DNA of 46,512 bases, from contig CACXVS010000024.1 in NCBI GenBank assembly GCA_902771155.1, positions 1-46,512 on the forward strand, read 5' to 3'. Below, in pieces: positions 3,488 through 36,274 of this stretch; positions within the stretch are counted from its first letter, which is position 1; every line of letters begins with the position of its first letter. The notes below the pieces were generated by a model. The model saw nothing but the letters and a program-made list of their open reading frames with translations, had not been told where the DNA came from and did no database searches. Position numbers and translations under genes: made by a program. Origin of the DNA: an uncultured Prevotellaceae bacterium. GTDB lineage: Bacteria > Bacteroidota > Bacteroidia > Bacteroidales > Bacteroidaceae.

Positions 3488-4564
3488 TTATTTGTCTTCT
3501 TTCTCACCGGTAGGGGTGCCGCCTTTCTTGATGCGGGGCCTCATCTTCTTGGGCTTGCCGTCCTGAGTCAGCTGCTCCACGCGGATGGTCTTTTCTTTCC
3601 TCTCTTTCACGTCTTTGCCGTCTTTGCCCTCTTTGGGAGCCATATGCTTCAGAAGCCGCCCGGTCTTGATGAGATTGCGGGCAATGGCGTCGAGCATGCC
3701 GTTGATGTATCCTCCGCTCTTCTTGGTGGAGTAGAGCTTGGCTATATCCACATACTCGTTGATGGTGACGCTGATGGGGATGTTGGGGAAGGTCATAATC
3801 TCTGCAATCGCAATCTGCATGAGGATGACGTCCATATAAGCCAGACGGGAGAAGTCCCAGTTGCGCGAGGCTTCGCTCATATACGACTGGTACTGGTCGG
3901 CGTTGAGAATGGCGGAGCGGAACAGCTTGCGCGCGAATTCCTTCTCCTCGTCGCTGTCCCATTCGGGCAGCAGCTCTTCTTTGGCGCCGTTTTGCTCCTT
4001 GAAGCGCTTGATGGTCTTCAGCACAAAGGTGTCAACAATCTCCTTGTCGTCGTTCCAGTACAGGCTCTGGTCCTCCAGGATGGCATCCAGGTCGGCGTTC
4101 TCCATGATGAACGTCTTATACAGTTTCCGCCACAGTTCGCGGTCGGCGTCATAGCTGTCCTCCTCGCTGGCCATATAGGCCTGATAGACCTCCGACTGCT
4201 CTATGACCTCGAGGATCTGCCCCAGGAATACGGCCGAGTCTTCCCAGACAAACTTCTGTGTGCTCATAAACTCCTGAAGCGTCTTGTTCTCGCCCAACTG
4301 GATGGCGAAGCGGTTAAACACAAATTTTTGTGAAGGTTGCGGTGTACCCTCGCGCTTGGCACGAGCCTGGGCCACATCAAGCCTGCGGCCGGCCTCTTTC
4401 GTGATAGCCACGATAAGCGCCAGAAGATAGTTGTAAAGGTCATAGGCCTTTGACAGACTGAAGAAAAGCTCCTTCTCTGCCGCGTCGATGTTCTTGTTAC
4501 CGTTTTGATAGTAAGCGTAGGTTAACTGAACAATCTTAATTCTAATAATCTCTCTATTGATCAT
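3488..4564 (-). CDS. nusB: Transcription antitermination factor NusB, long form
   Basis: 358 residues, against about 140 in E. coli. NusB with NusE (S10) binds boxA RNA and supports antitermination during rRNA transcription. The NusB fold lies in the C-terminal half (about 205-305): FARKLFRSAILNADQ, LMQIAIAEIMTFPNIPISVT and NEYVDIAKLYSTKKSGGYIN, the last being the most conserved NusB stretch. The N-terminal extension of about 190 residues is helical, and residues 310-358 form a basic, Lys-rich tail. Long NusB proteins are usual in Bacteroidetes. It is the first gene of the nusB-yajC-ybbR-coaE-DUF5606 operon. Confidence 0.93.
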   Translation of the reverse strand: MINREIIRIKIVQLTYAYYQNGNKNIDAAEKELFFSLSKAYDLYNYLLALIVAITKEAGRRLDVAQARAKREGTPQPSQKFVFNRFAIQLGENKTLQEFMSTQKFVWEDSAVFLGQILEVIEQSEVYQAYMASEEDSYDADRELWRKLYKTFIMENADLDAILEDQSLYWNDDKEIVDTFVLKTIKRFKEQNGAKEELLPEWDSDEEKEFARKLFRSAILNADQYQSYMSEASRNWDFSRLAYMDVILMQIAIAEIMTFPNIPISVTINEYVDIAKLYSTKKSGGYINGMLDAIARNLIKTGRLLKHMAPKEGKDGKDVKERKEKTIRVEQLTQDGKPKKMRPRIKKGGTPTGEKEDK

Positions 4565-4827: not shown

Positions 4828-5433
4828 ATGAAAGAAATGAGCGTTAGTGGCCAGAAGCGTGCCACAACCGGCAAGAAAGCCGCCAAAGAACTCCGTAAGG
4901 AGGGTCTTGTTCCCTGTAACCTTTATGGTGAGAAGAAAAATGATAAGGGCCTTCCCGAGGCTGTGTCGTTTGCTATCCCCGCATCTCAGCTCCGCAAGGT
5001 TGTCTATTCTCCCGATGTCTATGTGGTGAATCTGACTATCGACGGCGAGGCCCACAAGGCTGTGATGAAGGAAATCCAGTTCCATCCCACAACGGATGCC
5101 GTGCTGCATATCGACTTCTTCGAGGTGAATGAGACCAAGCCCATCACTATCGGTATCCCCGTGAAGCTGACTGGTCATGCTCAGGGTGTGCGCGATGGTG
5201 GTCGCCTGAGCCAGGCTGTTCGCCAGCTGAATGTGACGGCTCCCTATAAGCAGATTCCTGAGGTGCTGGAGATCGACGTGACCGAACTGAAGCTGGGTAA
5301 GGCTATCAAGGTGGCCGAACTGAGCTTTGAGGGTCTTGAGATCGCTACTCCCTCCCAGGTCGTTGTATGCTCTGTGAAGGCTACACGTGCTTCTCGTTCT
5401 GCTGCTGCAGCAGGTGAAGACGCTGCCGAGTAA
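4828..5433 (+). CDS. rplY: Large-subunit ribosomal protein L25 (TL5/CTC type)
   Basis: 201 residues, the two-domain TL5/CTC form. It binds 5S rRNA in the central protuberance of the 50S subunit. The N-terminal domain (about 1-95) contains KELRKEGLVPCNLYG and the C-terminal beta domain (about 100-190) contains HIDFFEVNETKPITIGIPV. The tail is Ala-rich. It heads a plus-strand run of closely spaced genes and is followed 17 nt later by pth, a frequent pairing in bacteria. Confidence 0.95.
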   Translation: MKEMSVSGQKRATTGKKAAKELRKEGLVPCNLYGEKKNDKGLPEAVSFAIPASQLRKVVYSPDVYVVNLTIDGEAHKAVMKEIQFHPTTDAVLHIDFFEVNETKPITIGIPVKLTGHAQGVRDGGRLSQAVRQLNVTAPYKQIPEVLEIDVTELKLGKAIKVAELSFEGLEIATPSQVVVCSVKATRASRSAAAAGEDAAE

Positions 5434-17618: not shown

Positions 17619-20126
17619 ATGCAAATTTGTATAGCGGTGAAGAATATTAAAAGGATTCTCTTGATAGTGTCGCTGTTGGTAAGTGTGCTTACTGCAGGCG
17701 CCCAGTCTATGAGCGACTTGGAGGTTTTAGAGTTTGTTCAGAAGGAGCAAAAGGCAGGCACGCCTCAACAGCAGATCTTCATCAAGCTGATGCAGCGTGG
17801 TGTCGATGCCAAGCAGATTCAGCGTCTCAGAAAACTATATGAGAGTTCTGGAGGTTCGGGCTCTTCTCGTTCTTCCTTGCGCCTCTCTTCTTCATCTTCC
17901 TCCTCCTCCGATGCCAATACCCGTCTGCGCGAGTCAAATGGTTCTGTTCGTGTCGATGCAGAGGGCAATCCACTTTACAGTTCGATGGATGGTTATAATC
18001 CTCTCGGTAGTAGTGAGTACGAGATTAACGATCTCGACACGCGTCCCAATGTCTATATCAAAGACTCCCTGAATCTTCTGGTGAATGGCAAGCAGGTGTT
18101 TGGTCGTGATATTTTCAACAAGCGTACGCTCTCTTTCGAGCCCAATATGAACATCCCCACGCCTTCCAGCTATGTGGTAGGTCCTGGCGACCAGGTTGTC
18201 ATCGATGTCTATGGAGCAACCCAGAAGTCTCAGAAACTCGAGGTGTCGCCAGATGGAACCGTTATCGTTGAAGGTGTAGGCCCCATCCATCTGGCAGGTC
18301 TTTCTGTTGAGGCTGCCAATGCGAAGATTAAGGATCAGTTGGGTCAGCGCTATAGCAGTTCAAGGATCCAGATGACGGTAGCCCAGACACGCACGATTAC
18401 GGTGAACGTGATGGGTGAAGTGTCAGCGCCTGGTACTTATACGCTTTCTGCCTTTGCCAGTGTCTTTCATGCCCTTTATATGGCTGGTGGTGTGAATGGT
18501 GTAGGTACACTCCGTAATATCAAGGTCTATCGTGGAGGTCGTCAGCTCACATCTGTCGATGTCTATGACTATATCCTCAATGGTCGCCTTACGGGCAATG
18601 TCCGTCTTCAGGATAACGATGTTATTGTTGTTGGCCCTTACGATTGTTTGGTTGACATCGTGGGAAACGTCAAGCGCCCTATGGCTTACGAAATGAAACA
18701 GAGCGAGAGTGTCGCTACCCTGTTGAAGTATGCAGGTGGTTTCTCTACGAAGGCTTATAAGGCCGCTGTCCGTCTGACCCGTACTGCAGGCAACCATTAT
18801 TCAGCCTATAGCGTTTCAGAGTTCGATATGGCAGGCTTCCACCTTATGGATGGCGACTCTGTGATTGTTGATTCCATCCTCGATCGCTATGAGAATACCA
18901 TTACCATTCGTGGTGCCGTCTTCCATCCTGGCCGTTACGACCTCGATGGCACTACCACCGTCCGTTCCCTCATCGAGCGCTCTGGTGGACTCACCGAAGA
19001 GGCTTTTTCCGCCCATGCGATGCTCTATCGTATGAAGTCTGATCGCACCCGTAGGGTCATCAGCATCGATGTCGATGCCCTTATGGCAGGTACCATAGCC
19101 GATATCGCCCTTGAAAACGAAGACGACATCTATATCCCCTATCGTCTGGAGACGATGTCGAAGCGCACGCTGACCATTCATGGTGAGGTACAGTTCCCTG
19201 GCGAATACGAGTATGCTGAAGACGAGACTATCGAGGATCTCATTTTACAGGCAGGCGGTCCTACTGATGCTACCTCAACAGCTAAGGTCGATGTGGCCCG
19301 TCGTATTGCCGACCCTGCGGCAACCTCTTCCGACAAGGCTATTGCTCAGACGTTCAGCTTCTCGCTTAAGAATGGTTATATTGTGGATGGCGATCGTTCG
19401 TTCACGCTCCAGCCTTACGATGAGGTCTATGTGCGTAAGAGTCCTGGTTACCATCCTCAGCGCAATGTGGAGGTGGTAGGTGAGGTGCTCTTCGAGGGTA
19501 CCTATTCACTCCCGATGAAGAATACGCGCCTCTCTGATGCTATCAAGGCTGCAGGAGGTGTCACAGCCGAGGCCTATATTAAGGGCGCACGTGTGGAGCG
19601 CCTGTTGAATCCTGATGAGAAGTTCCGTGTACAGAATTTGATGAAGATGGCCCAGATACAGACAGGGCATGGTCTCGACACCACGATGGTTACCCGTACC
19701 GATAGTATCTACTATGTAGGTATCAATCTCGATAAGGCCATCGAGAATCCAGGTTCCGACTATGATATCATCCTTCGTGAGGGCGACCGCCTGGTAGTGC
19801 CCGAATATAATGGTACAGTGAAGATCAACGGTAATGTGATGTATCCCAATACAGTGGCCTATAGCGAGGGTAAGGGCTATAAGTGGTACGTCAATCAGGC
19901 TGGTGGCTTTGGCAATCGTGCCAAGAAGTCTCGCACGTACATTCTTTATCAGAATGGTACTGTGACGAAGGCCAAGAAAGGTGCCAAGATCGAACCAGGT
20001 TGTGAGATCATCGTTCCCACGAAGACCACCTCGTCAGCACAGACCATTGCCAACATCGGCTCCATCGGTACCTCTATGGCCACGATTGTCACGCTGTTGG
20101 TGTCTGTCTTGAATCTTTTGAAATAA
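17619..20126 (+). CDS. Polysaccharide export protein with six SLBB domains
   Basis: 835 residues. A signal peptide (about 1-28, cleavage after AGA) is followed by a helical stretch, a poly-Ser linker (about 78-98), the Poly_export/Wza domain (about 184-265, VVGPGDQVVIDVYG) and six SLBB repeats starting near 265, 348, 431, 521, 621 and 737 (for example GEVSAPGTYTL, GAVFHPGRYDL, GEVQFPGEYEY). A hydrophobic segment ends the protein. Wza-type proteins form the outer-membrane exit channel for capsule or exopolysaccharide but have fewer SLBB domains. No Wzc, polymerase or glycosyltransferase gene is adjacent. The ATG lies only 10 nt after the -7 box; GTG at 17637 (VKNIKRILLIV) is an equally good start. 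tRNA-Arg follows after 10 nt. Confidence 0.88.
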   Translation: MQICIAVKNIKRILLIVSLLVSVLTAGAQSMSDLEVLEFVQKEQKAGTPQQQIFIKLMQRGVDAKQIQRLRKLYESSGGSGSSRSSLRLSSSSSSSSDANTRLRESNGSVRVDAEGNPLYSSMDGYNPLGSSEYEINDLDTRPNVYIKDSLNLLVNGKQVFGRDIFNKRTLSFEPNMNIPTPSSYVVGPGDQVVIDVYGATQKSQKLEVSPDGTVIVEGVGPIHLAGLSVEAANAKIKDQLGQRYSSSRIQMTVAQTRTITVNVMGEVSAPGTYTLSAFASVFHALYMAGGVNGVGTLRNIKVYRGGRQLTSVDVYDYILNGRLTGNVRLQDNDVIVVGPYDCLVDIVGNVKRPMAYEMKQSESVATLLKYAGGFSTKAYKAAVRLTRTAGNHYSAYSVSEFDMAGFHLMDGDSVIVDSILDRYENTITIRGAVFHPGRYDLDGTTTVRSLIERSGGLTEEAFSAHAMLYRMKSDRTRRVISIDVDALMAGTIADIALENEDDIYIPYRLETMSKRTLTIHGEVQFPGEYEYAEDETIEDLILQAGGPTDATSTAKVDVARRIADPAATSSDKAIAQTFSFSLKNGYIVDGDRSFTLQPYDEVYVRKSPGYHPQRNVEVVGEVLFEGTYSLPMKNTRLSDAIKAAGGVTAEAYIKGARVERLLNPDEKFRVQNLMKMAQIQTGHGLDTTMVTRTDSIYYVGINLDKAIENPGSDYDIILREGDRLVVPEYNGTVKINGNVMYPNTVAYSEGKGYKWYVNQAGGFGNRAKKSRTYILYQNGTVTKAKKGAKIEPGCEIIVPTKTTSSAQTIANIGSIGTSMATIVTLLVSVLNLLK

Positions 20127-20136
20127 ACATACTTTA

Positions 20137-20210
20137 GGTCCCGTAGCTTAGCTGAATAGAGCGTCAGATTCCGGTTCTGAAGGTCCAGGGTTTGAATCCC
20201 TGCGGGATCA
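20137..20210 (+). tRNA. tRNA-Arg (anticodon CCG)
   Basis: A full cloverleaf can be drawn. Acceptor GGTCCCG pairs with CGGGATC (one G-T). The anticodon stem TCAGA/TCTGA encloses TTCCGGT with anticodon CCG at 20171-20173, which reads CGG. The T arm is CAGGG-TTTGAAT-CCCTG, and the discriminator is A. CCA is not encoded. It starts 10 nt after the SLBB stop with no promoter in the gap, so it is either read through from that gene or driven from inside its 3' end. Confidence 0.95.
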
Positions 20211-20222
20211 CATACTAATAAT

Positions 20223-20266
20223 AAAGGCAGCAACGAAAACTTGTTTTTCAGTTGAGGCCTTTTTTA
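20223..20266 (+). terminator. Possible terminator after tRNA-Arg
   Basis: AAAGGC (20223-20228) can pair with GCCTTT (20257-20262), with further partial pairing of CAAC and GTTG inside, and a run of T follows. The stem is interrupted, so this is a moderate call. Confidence 0.5.
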
Positions 20267-20439
20267 TTGGATGTCAGACCAACCCGTGGCATGGGTAGGG
20301 ATTGACGAATTGAAAAGAAAAGAGAATAATTGAAGCGATTCAAACTATCTGTTTTTTACAAGTGAACGGAAAACACATGATATCGACCATCTTTTCATCC
20401 TTTGGTCGGTTGATTTAATAGATATTTTTTTGTCATTGT

Positions 20440-20543
20440 GCCTACATGCCTACATAAAATCTTCTGAAATGTCTTTAAATATGGTATTTTCTGATTGTTT
20501 TTGCCTACATAAAGCCTACATAAAACCTACATATAGCCTACAT
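20440..20543. repeat. Left arm of a long inverted repeat, six CCTACAT heptamers
   Basis: CCTACAT starts at 20441 and 20449 (8 bp apart) and at 20504, 20515, 20526 and 20537 (exactly 11 bp apart, about one helical turn). The blocks 20440-20470 and 20500-20522 recur in reverse complement in the right arm: 31 bp with one mismatch and 23 bp exact. The 29 bp between the two blocks have diverged. Confidence 0.85.
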
Positions 20544-20634
20544 GCATTTATATCAAGGTGCCTTTTATGTTCTGTAGGGATGTGGATCAAACAAAGAGCC
20601 TTGCCTGGAGATTATTTGTCAAGTAGTTGCTCTT

Positions 20635-20652
20635 GAATTCTCTAGAGAATTT
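20635..20652. repeat. 18-bp palindrome, copy 1
   Basis: GAATTCTCTAGAGAATTT, one base short of a perfect palindrome. GCTCTT precedes it. The perfect copy lies at 20701-20718. Confidence 0.8.
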
Positions 20653-20700
20653 GAATGAAAGTACCCGTAGCGCTATTTTTTTCTTCCCTATGGAAGCTCT

Positions 20701-20718
20701 GAATTCTCTAGAGAATTC
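20701..20718. repeat. 18-bp palindrome, copy 2 (perfect)
   Basis: GAATTCTCTAGAGAATTC equals its reverse complement. It lies 66 bp after copy 1. AAGAGC follows it and mirrors the GCTCTT before copy 1, so the two copies form an inner inverted pair near the centre of the outer arms. Confidence 0.85.
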
Positions 20719-20753
20719 AACAACAAGAGCCTAATATAAAACTTGCTAGTCTG

Positions 20754-20761
20754 TATCTTTG
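20754..20761 (+). promoter_or_regulatory. Promoter-like -7 box inside the inverted-repeat core
   Basis: TATCTTTG fits the consensus, but no well-spaced -33 element was seen and no gene follows before 21119. If active it would make a noncoding RNA running through the right arm. Confidence 0.3.
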
Positions 20762-20845
20762 TTTTTGCGAGAGCCCTATCTGGGTGTTTTGGCGTGCTTA
20801 TTTTGTGGAATTCTGCATGTAAGAGGGCTGTTTTGTGTGGTCAAT

Positions 20846-20937
20846 ATGTAGTTGCTATGTAGGCTTTATGTAGGCAAATTTTCTTCAATATCTTTTGTTT
20901 AAAGGTATTTCAGAAGATTTTATGTAGGTATGTAGGC
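20846..20937. repeat. Right arm of the inverted repeat, ATGTAGG heptamers
   Basis: ATGTAGG starts at 20857 and 20868 (11 bp apart), preceded by a one-mismatch copy at 20846 that keeps the 11-bp phase, and again at 20922 and 20930 (8 bp apart). 20856-20878 and 20907-20937 mirror the two conserved blocks of the left arm, so spacing as well as sequence is kept. Confidence 0.85.
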
Positions 20938-21085
20938 AATTTTTAACTTTATTATGAAAAGTATGATATATCTAAGAAACGGTGTCTCACCGTGTATAGG
21001 TTGTGATTTGGATCAGATTCTCAGAATTGAGCTGAAAACTTAAAGATTTAACAGTTCTGCGGAGCATAGTTTGGATAATTCTTAT

Positions 21086-21093
21086 TATCTTTG
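21086..21093 (+). promoter_or_regulatory. Promoter -7 box for the secreted protein gene
   Basis: TATCTTTG about 25 nt before the ATG at 21119. A TTTG at 21070-21073 is only 12 bp upstream, closer than usual. Confidence 0.5.
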
Positions 21094-21118
21094 CAAGCGA
21101 ATATAATCAGATGAAGAT

Positions 21119-22012
21119 ATGAAGAAGACCTTATTCCTTATTCCATTCCTGTTTCTGGCGGTTGTGGCTGGGGCACAGGACTTTGAGACAGAGATCGCAT
21201 TGGTTGAAGCACTTGACTTCAATGGAAAGACGCTTGCGAAGGCTCCTGACGGCAAGGCTCGGACACTGCAGCTGGCTCGCACCAAGTTCTCTAAGCCTAT
21301 GGAGAGTTACACGACGCTTGCACTGCCTTCGCTTAAACTGGGCAACATCATCGGACATCCTACCCTTGGGTGGGACGACACAGATTTCAAGATACCTGAG
21401 GGCGTACCTGCTGTCTATGAGGATAAATGGGTGTTGAACGATGTGTTTACCGATGGTGACTTTCCAGTGGCCATCTATGGTCGCACTCCTAGCGAGAAGC
21501 CCTTTCCCTGGGGAGAAAGTGAGAAGGATATCTCCTGTCGTGGCAGAGACCCGCATCTGATAATGCTCCTCGACCCCTCGAAGGAGGTGAAGAGGGTGTA
21601 TAACATCCGTAATCTCTCGATTACTCCCAAGGACAGTCTTTTTGAAAGTGTGGAATGGGCAGTGGTGAAGGATGGCGTGTTGTACTTCTCTGTGTGTCTC
21701 ATAACGGCACCTGACAAGGACTCTCAAGGCAACTATCTCGTGGCCGTTGATATCCATACCGACAAGACGCTCTGGATGAGCAAGCCGCGTACCATTAATT
21801 CCTCCAACTTCCTGATTGTTGGCAATTCCATCATCTGTGGTCATGGAGGTTCGGGCATTACAGACTATATCCATGTGCTGAACCGCTACACGGGTGTCAA
21901 GACTCGTGAGTACTGGATACCCACCGCTGCCTCCTGGTTTGCCATAGGGGAGGACAACATGCTTTATGCCACCCTCTACGACAAGCACGTGGCCTTCAAG
22001 ATTACAAAATAA
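21119..22012 (+). CDS. Secreted protein of unknown function, possibly beta-propeller-like
   Basis: 297 residues. A clear signal peptide (MKKTLFLIPFLFLAVVAGAQ, cleavage after AGA) is present and no lipobox. I do not recognise the family. The later part reads as short blocks with phrases such as VVKDGVLYFSVCLI, GNYLVAVDIHTDKTLWMSKP, NFLIVGNSIICGHGG and HVLNRYTGVKTREYW, which recall blades of outer-surface or periplasmic propeller proteins; that is an impression, not a match. It stands alone between the repeat region and the convergent LUD gene. Confidence 0.75.
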   Translation: MKKTLFLIPFLFLAVVAGAQDFETEIALVEALDFNGKTLAKAPDGKARTLQLARTKFSKPMESYTTLALPSLKLGNIIGHPTLGWDDTDFKIPEGVPAVYEDKWVLNDVFTDGDFPVAIYGRTPSEKPFPWGESEKDISCRGRDPHLIMLLDPSKEVKRVYNIRNLSITPKDSLFESVEWAVVKDGVLYFSVCLITAPDKDSQGNYLVAVDIHTDKTLWMSKPRTINSSNFLIVGNSIICGHGGSGITDYIHVLNRYTGVKTREYWIPTAASWFAIGEDNMLYATLYDKHVAFKITK

Positions 22013-34720: not shown

Positions 34721-36274
34721 ATGAATAGGAAAGGATTAAGGATGGTTAAAGGCTGGGTAAAATGGTTTTTGCCTTTTTATCTTTTTACCTTTTTACCTTT
34801 CTCTGCGGGTGCTCAGAGGGTGCTGAGTCTCGACAGTTGTCGCCAGATGGCCCTGCGCAATAATAAGCAGTTGGGCGTTTCCAAGTTGAAACAGGAGGTG
34901 GCTGCCAATCTCCGTAAGTCGGCTCGCACTAAGTATCTGCCTCATGTCAATGCCATCGGTACCTATCAGTACACCAGCAAGCCAATATCCTTGCTGAGCG
35001 ACGCACAAAAGCAGAGTCTGCCACATATCGGTACTGCGGTGGTGGGTAACATGCAGCCTTCGATGGCTGGCATCGAGACCTCGATGACACAGTTGGGGGC
35101 AGCCTTCATGAAGTTGGGCGTGCCTCCTTCCGAGGTTCAGCAGATGTTAGGTGGATTGCAGACCAGTCTGCAGGGTGGCATGCAAGGCATGGAGGCCACA
35201 CTTAATGCCCTGGGCCAGCAGATTGTCGATGCCTTCGACACTGATACCCGTAACCTCTTCGCAGGTTCTGTCATGCTTACACAGCCCATCTTTATGGGTG
35301 GAAGCATTATTGCCATGAATAAGATGGCCGACCTAAGCGAAGACATGGCCGAAAATTCGTTGAATGCCCGTCGCCAGGCCACCATCTATAGAATCGATCA
35401 GGCTTATTGGCAGGTCGTGTCGCTCCATCATAAGAAGGAACTTGCAGAGAGTTTTCTTGACCTTGTGAAGAAGTTTGATACCGATGTTCACAAGATGATC
35501 GACGAAGGTGTTGCCACCAGGAGCGATGGTCTGAGTGTCGATGTCAAGGTCAACGAGGCCGAGATGATGCTTACTAAGGTCAACGATGGTCTGGTGCTCT
35601 CGCGCATGCTGTTAAATCAGCTCTGCGGTCTTCCCCTCGACGAAGTGGTAACCCTTGCCGACGAGATGGCTGAGAACATTGCCGTGGTGGAATTTGCCCC
35701 GCAGTTGAATGTCGAGTTGGCCGTCGAAAACCGTCCTGAACTCAGGATGCTGCAGAACTCCATCGATATCTCCAAACAGGCCACCAATATCCTTCGTGCA
35801 GGTAATCTGCCACAGGTGGCTTTGACGGGAGGCTATTCCGTCAGCAACCCGAACACGTTCAATGGCTTTGAGAGAAAGTTTGGTGGCTTCTGGAACGTAG
35901 GTGTGCTGGTGCGTGTACCCATTTGGAACTGGGGCGACGTGATGTATAAAGTACGTGCCTCAAAGGGTGCTACCAGTATTGCAAACCTCGAACTGGCTGA
36001 GGCTCGTGAACTCGTAGAGCTGCAGGTCAACCAATCTGCTTTCAGGGTAGATGAGGCTAACAAGACACTCACGATGGCACAGTCTAATATCCAGCGTGCC
36101 GAAGAAAATCTCCGCATTGCCAATCTCGGCTTCAGCGAGGGTGTCATCACCCCCTCAGCAGTCATGGAGGCGCAGACGGCATGGCTGCAGGCCCAGTCGC
36201 AGAAAATCGACGCAGAGATCGATGTAAAACTCAGTCAGGTTGATCTGCAGAAAGCCCTTGGAACATTGGAATAA
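34721..36274 (+). CDS. TolC-family outer-membrane efflux protein
   Basis: 517 residues. A signal peptide (about 1-31) starts after a basic stretch. The OEP architecture is clear: LDSCRQMALRNNKQLGVSKLKQEV, then the second copy ENRPELRMLQNSIDISKQATN and WNVGVLVRVPIWNWGDVMYK. It forms the outer-membrane channel and periplasmic tunnel of tripartite pumps. Residues about 101-172 are an extra Gly/Met/Gln-rich segment (GLQTSLQGGMQGMEATLNAL) not seen in ordinary TolC. hlyD-like and permease genes follow. Confidence 0.92.
   Translation: MNRKGLRMVKGWVKWFLPFYLFTFLPFSAGAQRVLSLDSCRQMALRNNKQLGVSKLKQEVAANLRKSARTKYLPHVNAIGTYQYTSKPISLLSDAQKQSLPHIGTAVVGNMQPSMAGIETSMTQLGAAFMKLGVPPSEVQQMLGGLQTSLQGGMQGMEATLNALGQQIVDAFDTDTRNLFAGSVMLTQPIFMGGSIIAMNKMADLSEDMAENSLNARRQATIYRIDQAYWQVVSLHHKKELAESFLDLVKKFDTDVHKMIDEGVATRSDGLSVDVKVNEAEMMLTKVNDGLVLSRMLLNQLCGLPLDEVVTLADEMAENIAVVEFAPQLNVELAVENRPELRMLQNSIDISKQATNILRAGNLPQVALTGGYSVSNPNTFNGFERKFGGFWNVGVLVRVPIWNWGDVMYKVRASKGATSIANLELAEARELVELQVNQSAFRVDEANKTLTMAQSNIQRAEENLRIANLGFSEGVITPSAVMEAQTAWLQAQSQKIDAEIDVKLSQVDLQKALGTLE

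Follow-up and report, generated by a model that had tools for sequence, protein, structure and literature searches.

The stretch analysed here, hereafter the window, comprises 46,512 nucleotides of contig CACXVS010000024.1 from an uncultured Prevotellaceae bacterium, and between positions 20441 and 20936 it carries a symmetric array of CCTACAT heptamers in a region (20234-21118) devoid of listed open reading frames (ORFs) of at least 90 amino acids. The outer arms of the array (20439-20479 and 20898-20938) are 41 nt long and 93% complementary, the inner arms (20500-20542 and 20836-20878) 43 nt and 86%, and the heptamer positions agree with those given in an initial annotation of this DNA, including that of a degenerate copy in the right inner array (Table 1). 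CCTACAT occurs 14 times in the window against 4.9 expected, a count reached in none of 100 shuffles, and in 500 dinucleotide shuffles of 20400-20980 no matching geometry arose. Likewise, a template without a fixed heptamer gave a single fit among the 153 tiles of the window, the array region. The core contains two exact copies of the palindrome AATTCTCTAGAGAATT, a family signature that the initial annotation had missed; its inner 12-mer has two matches at one mismatch or fewer, with 0.07 expected. No HU or VapE match was found by tblastn within 700 bp of the site, which is thus a solo copy. A structured RNA family was considered and rejected, the Rfam gathering score being reached across the whole window solely by tRNA.

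Table 1. Parts of the symmetric site, in window coordinates.
Feature	Positions	Strand	Remarks
Left tip	20413..20440		A/T-rich, weakly conserved extension outside the outer pair; boundary approximate
Left outer heptamer pair	20441..20455	+	CCTACAT-G-CCTACAT, 8-bp step; heptamers at 20441, 20449
Left linker	20456..20503	+	A/T-rich, 23% GC; length kept across the family
Left inner array	20504..20543	+	Four CCTACAT at 11-bp steps: 20504, 20515, 20526, 20537
Core	20544..20845		39% GC, without long ORF
Core palindrome 1	20636..20651		AATTCTCTAGAGAATT, exact
Core palindrome 2	20702..20717		AATTCTCTAGAGAATT, exact; 66 bp from palindrome 1
Right inner array	20846..20874	-	ACTACAT at 20846 (degenerate), CCTACAT at 20857, 20868
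Right linker	20875..20921	-	
Right outer heptamer pair	20922..20936	-	CCTACAT at 20922, 20930; 8-bp step
Right tip	20937..20964		Boundary approximate, on the same basis as the left tip

The window site is a member of a widespread Prevotella/Bacteroidaceae family of symmetric sites, built from a heptamer pair at 8 bp, about 55 bp of linker, an array of heptamers with an 11-bp step, a core and the mirror image of these (genomes and loci are numbered here with the prefixes G and L). Three CCTACAT at 11-bp steps were found in at least 119 stretches of species genomes, many of them rumen Prevotella/Bacteroidaceae assemblies and some from unrelated bacteria; dozens of the pattern matches share the geometry of the window site, and 65 distinct complete elements were gathered, partly by array search and partly by VapE search. 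In a drawn sample of 398 genomes of the genus, the outer-pair pattern occurs in 33, against 1 for the reversed control; in all these counts, related copies of the element are not independent of each other. A VapE or HU gene lies within 700 bp of 15 of the 65 complete CCTACAT elements, 33 are solo and 17 have flanks too short to tell, so that among the classifiable elements solo copies, the window copy included, outnumber cassettes. Phage and plasmid collections gave only weak blastn matches (best E 0.1 to 0.6). In viral contigs, the three-heptamer pattern returned nine stretches, none with mirrored arrays on reading of the heptamer positions, the outer-pair pattern one match (L129) with another heptamer order and gene setting, and the palindrome pair one match (L398) that fits the template and lies among genes that, when read, look chromosomal. 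No description of the site was found in the literature searched (one library). Two loci from Pseudomonas and Mitsuaria (L003, L089) have CCTACAT on a single strand, at 11-bp steps and with no mirror image, and are probably unrelated.

The family is linked to a gene cassette. In L116 and in L042, where the VapE-type gene is split, the site takes up the whole space between that gene and the HU-like gene diverging from it; by Pfam, the cassette protein matches BT4734-like_N (PF08800) and VapE-like_dom (PF05272), and the HU-like protein HU-HIG. Of 30 VapE loci picked by protein alone, 20 had a gap with at least four exact CCTACAT, and a divergent HU gene was present in 24. The heptamer-free template fitted 24 of the 29 protein-picked gaps with enough upstream sequence, compared with 0 of 330 shuffles, and of the five misfits three hold 5-8 CCTACAT and two use TGACATA. 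In cassettes the site therefore adjoins a putative initiator gene, and in those of type 1 the genes lie outside the arms. A BT4734_N-VapE gene at E <= 1e-100 is present in 123 of the 398 sampled genomes, as judged by a protein search that scored at most two candidates per genome, and across the sample the arms and the core pair are each associated with VapE at this limit. The initial annotation had argued that association with VapE-type genes would favour an iteron role, and several copies per genome a mobile element; both were found, as described here and below.

The primase-helicase domains of the cassette protein were assigned by Pfam, and its winged helix comes from a model of a type 2 relative. 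The modelled relative has a helicase fold, its closest solved structure being PriRep1 (7pds), and a C-terminal helix-helix-wing; modelling presents VapE as a helicase of PriRep1 type with a winged helix at its end. An AlphaFold model of full VapE (P0002) was discarded for its poor confidence score (pLDDT 44), and P0001 had no match in PADLOC or NCBIfam. The type 2 elements themselves (L001:592-2057 and L041:3040-4600) have arms ACCCTACACCCTACAT, carry a heptamer in inverted orientation in the linker and enclose a VapE gene of 401 aa between their arms; L063, from the same genome as L041, is a solo type 2 relative whose core measures about 30 bp. At four loci, arrays have a Fic (VbhA-type antitoxin) or a HipA-like gene near or beside them, recognised by Pfam in L034:3830-4672 and L041:1228-2475 and by reading in L117:1-968 and L016:2031-3155.

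The core palindromes provide evidence independent of the heptamer. Two AATTCTCTAGAGAATT palindromes 65-66 bp apart are found in 34 of the 65 complete elements, that of the window included (9 VapE/HU-linked, 19 solo and 6 with short flanks). A probe for TTCTCTAGAGAA occurring twice at about 65 bp detected 58 of the 398 genomes and no controls, with up to 13 copies per genome. Of 28 fetched palindrome-pair loci with room, 19 conform to the array template, whereas none of 140 shuffles does, and 14 of the 23 with 1 kb on both sides have neither VapE nor HU. Since the copies in G006 are without the pair, it is not needed for dispersal in that genome.

The heptamer itself differs between lineages. 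ATCTTAC is found in the related geometry of G496 and G418, CTACTTT (read by eye) in L396, next to a VapE of 57%, and the solo elements of G327, G350 and G340 have AAGGGTG. As about ten places take on the new word jointly and the distances stay fixed, a protein array with a co-evolving partner is indicated. The spacing is maintained although the linkers vary and the heptamers, too, differ from one element to another, which upholds the earlier view of a protein-bound array as opposed to a plain hairpin. Residue 688 of VapE co-varies with the heptamer class, which is suggestive of heptamer recognition by VapE. In G006, heptamers other than the six fixed by the search pattern were counted in an alignment of 13 of the 19 fetched regions, those with both arms and room; 2 of 539 positions were off consensus, against 194 of 2540 elsewhere in these copies. 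Because the unfixed heptamers are nearly unmutated, the G006 copies seem, from their sequences, to be under selection, and most indels of their inner arrays measure about one or two repeat units. Of VapE genes, G006 contains a single member of the cassette clade (82%, truncated where its contig ends and next to one of the copies), together with two distant ones. In addition, ATCTTAC or CCTTACC arrays with 8-bp outer pairs were noted 3' of VapE-type genes in L230 (G418) and in L243, L245 and L249 (G496); Prevotella-type cassettes, by contrast, have theirs upstream.

Copies within a genome are homologous across the element, with at least 17 in G006, where the flanks differ, and 13 in G327. In G003 (L055, L111, L320), G001 (L317, L318), G391, G087 and G404 the homology ends at a distance of 1-36 bp beyond the outer pairs; at one end it extends for 55 to about 100 bp beyond the pair in G372 and G266, and for longer in G150. 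The family consensus reaches about -28 over 126 tips. With terminal inverted repeats, no coding capacity and many dispersed copies, the elements have the make-up of a miniature inverted-repeat transposable element (MITE), and a hidden transposase is the main rival explanation for the origin of the solo copies. The arms would then be the ends of a transposon, cut at their outer limits by a recombinase, with VapE and HU possibly accessory and the heptamers serving as enzyme-binding sites, like those in the ends of Tn7 and Mu. This would account for the shared ends near the outer pairs, for the copy numbers in G327 and G006, and for the type 2 elements, with one gene between the arms and solo copies with a short core; the type 1 genes, however, lie outside the arms, and no transposase was found between the arms or identified among 10 neighbour proteins of six loci, one of which weakly passes the TniB cut-off with a far better match to AAA_14. 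Nor did 63 elements, whose ends are approximate, show a target-site duplication clearly above shuffled pairing, and on balance we consider a transposon end-pair unlikely. In the G006 right flanks that were read (L178-L196), mostly 22-bp tandem repeats CGACAGCAAGCAGGAGNCGATG and a conserved TTGCGCAAG region were seen; L073 (G087) has two other short dispersed repeats, at about 3542-3609 and 5069-5114, with many matches in related genomes, and the window an 8-bp tandem repeat TTTTTACC in 4.4 copies at 34766-34800.

The empty site in relatives that the initial annotation had looked to was not encountered in clean form among the loci compared. Most of the 81 related genomes searched have a match to the rplM side of L083 (G006), with no element adjoining it elsewhere among the matches listed, a comparison that is one-sided; the flanks of L073 and L318 are rearranged or absent in the relatives searched, with no empty site, and cross-comparison of the fetched loci gave no filled/empty pair. 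L016 and L034 were rejected as such a pair, L016 being a deletion remnant of the cassette present in L034: it keeps the HU promoter region, the left arm and part of the core, is 88% like the L034 site, and also has the MGMT-type gene that lies about 4.5 kb from the L034 cassette. In relatives of the window, the fetched flanks of the downstream-gene ortholog (L158, L159) and of tRNA-Arg (L162, L164) hold no element, and in L163 a differing heptamer arrangement at 9-bp steps lies about 1.3 kb from tRNA-Arg on its 5' side. Insertion at tRNA-Arg, as first suggested, was not supported: the 12 bases that end the tRNA have no second occurrence in the window, and among 54 related loci (a few of which overlap) a tRNA within 200 bp was seen in L073 alone. 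A tyrosine-recombinase island at a tRNA gene was likewise rejected, no tRNA 3'-end repeat being reported in 19800-21600.

We favour, by a modest preference, the interpretation that the window element is an orphan iteron-origin-like site of the VapE/HU cassette, dispersed as a miniature element. In the cassette, the site would be a cis-acting origin between the divergent HU-like and BT4734_N-VapE primase-helicase genes, a function to which we give slightly better than even chances. VapE probably binds the heptamers; its C-terminal winged helix would recognise them, with monomers stacking along each arm at one per helical turn, the 11-bp step. Being inverted, the arms may load a pair of opposed helicase rings; the symmetric stretch of core enclosed by the two AATTCTCTAGAGAATT would be opened or processed, and HU would bend the linkers. 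Loading of opposed helicases by inverted arrays is the simplest reading and, by analogy, resembles the replication modules of phage P4 and of the Staphylococcus aureus pathogenicity islands (SaPIs) (PMC7145576, PMC10061031). A resident cassette would maintain and spread the solo copies in trans, the helper being a replication initiator, not a transposase. For this spread our expectation falls just short of even, lowered because G150 and G007 show no close VapE, their best candidates passing the E limit only weakly (2.5e-109 and 1.8e-119).

These last two genomes are among several observations that weigh against an origin served by VapE. Six arm-bearing genomes are without VapE at E <= 1e-100, their matches reaching at most 44% identity, in assemblies that may be incomplete. 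Judged by their coordinates, the related arrays of G496 and G418 are situated 3' of VapE and not in the upstream gap, and in the type 2 elements L001 and L041 the arms are about 1.3 kb apart with VapE between them, which is odd for a compact origin. The core, at 39% GC against 50% for the whole window, is not strikingly A/T-rich, and in HU, too, there are columns, two in number, that separate the heptamer classes. Finally, no recombinase accounting for the chromosomal entry of the copies was identified, and the missing target-site duplications and empty sites described above count here as well.

In a regulatory or partition role, the arrays would serve the divergent HU/VapE promoters as operators, or would act in silencing or in the manner of parS, and the solo copies would be distant binding sites. 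The location in a divergent intergenic region and the likeness of the core palindrome to a dimer operator, a related TTCTCTAGAAAAT preceding HU in L034, are in line with such a role, but the solo copies adjoin unrelated genes, an operator would not need copying as a 235-643-bp symmetric unit, and VapE is helicase-like; we regard this role as improbable. Least of all do we expect a dead relic of a cassette whose two genes were lost here, for although the truncated L016 is just such a remnant and fits the earlier idea of an internal-deletion relic, the window copy has both arms complete and no tblastn match to either gene within 700 bp, complete G006 copies keep their heptamers, and among the classifiable elements solo copies exceed cassettes, 33 to 15.

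The origin-like interpretation can be compared with known systems. PriRep1 is a staphylococcal protein, and in SaPI origins sets of iterons flank a melting region. The window site shares with SaPI- and P4-type iteron origins the short direct repeats arrayed on either side of a core, and the cassette shares with SaPI Rep/PriRep a helicase with a C-terminal winged helix and a primase partner; PMC10061031 discusses SaPI5 Rep as a helicase of this general kind. The differences from SaPIs are the HU partner, the heptamers in 8/55/11 geometry, the core palindrome pair and the chromosomal solo copies, and no integrase or packaging gene was seen among the 10 neighbours scanned. In phage P4, the C-terminal DNA-binding domain of the alpha protein reads short iterons in two separate regions of one phage genome (ori and crr), whereas here one symmetric site is multiplied without genes. 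Alpha is described as a fused primase-helicase initiator (PMC7145576), a fusion also seen in the cassette VapE. The Pfam domains of the cassette protein match the BT4734-like primases, a listed family of archaeo-eukaryotic primases (AEPs), and the VirE-family ATPases (PF05272), predicted helicases of mobile-element replication; the available part of that account (PMC5862659) describes no cis site. BrickBuilt of Porphyromonas gingivalis is a dispersed, repeat-bearing miniature element of the Bacteroidales, and identity with it was rejected on account of its differing ends: IS5-type terminal repeats, together with 23-bp tandem repeats and, in the part available, no heptamer geometry described (PMC4596501).

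The site is thus ordinary in its parts and new as a whole. More tentatively, and with some doubt, we suggest that it may represent a class of transposase-free mobile elements, in which the origin of a primase-helicase/HU cassette, as a symmetric miniature element standing alone, is multiplied and inserted, its recognition words exchanged wholesale between lineages and its architecture frozen (8-55-11 arrays, often round a 65-bp palindrome pair). BT4734_N-VapE genes are common in these bacteria, and the literature searched describes no cis site for them; now that the site is described together with its rules and with natural variants of its specificity, initiator binding, origin firing and spread become directly testable. 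If it is true that solo origins spread by themselves, this would amount to a novel mode of DNA multiplication within a chromosome, one that would scatter extra potential origins across the genome.
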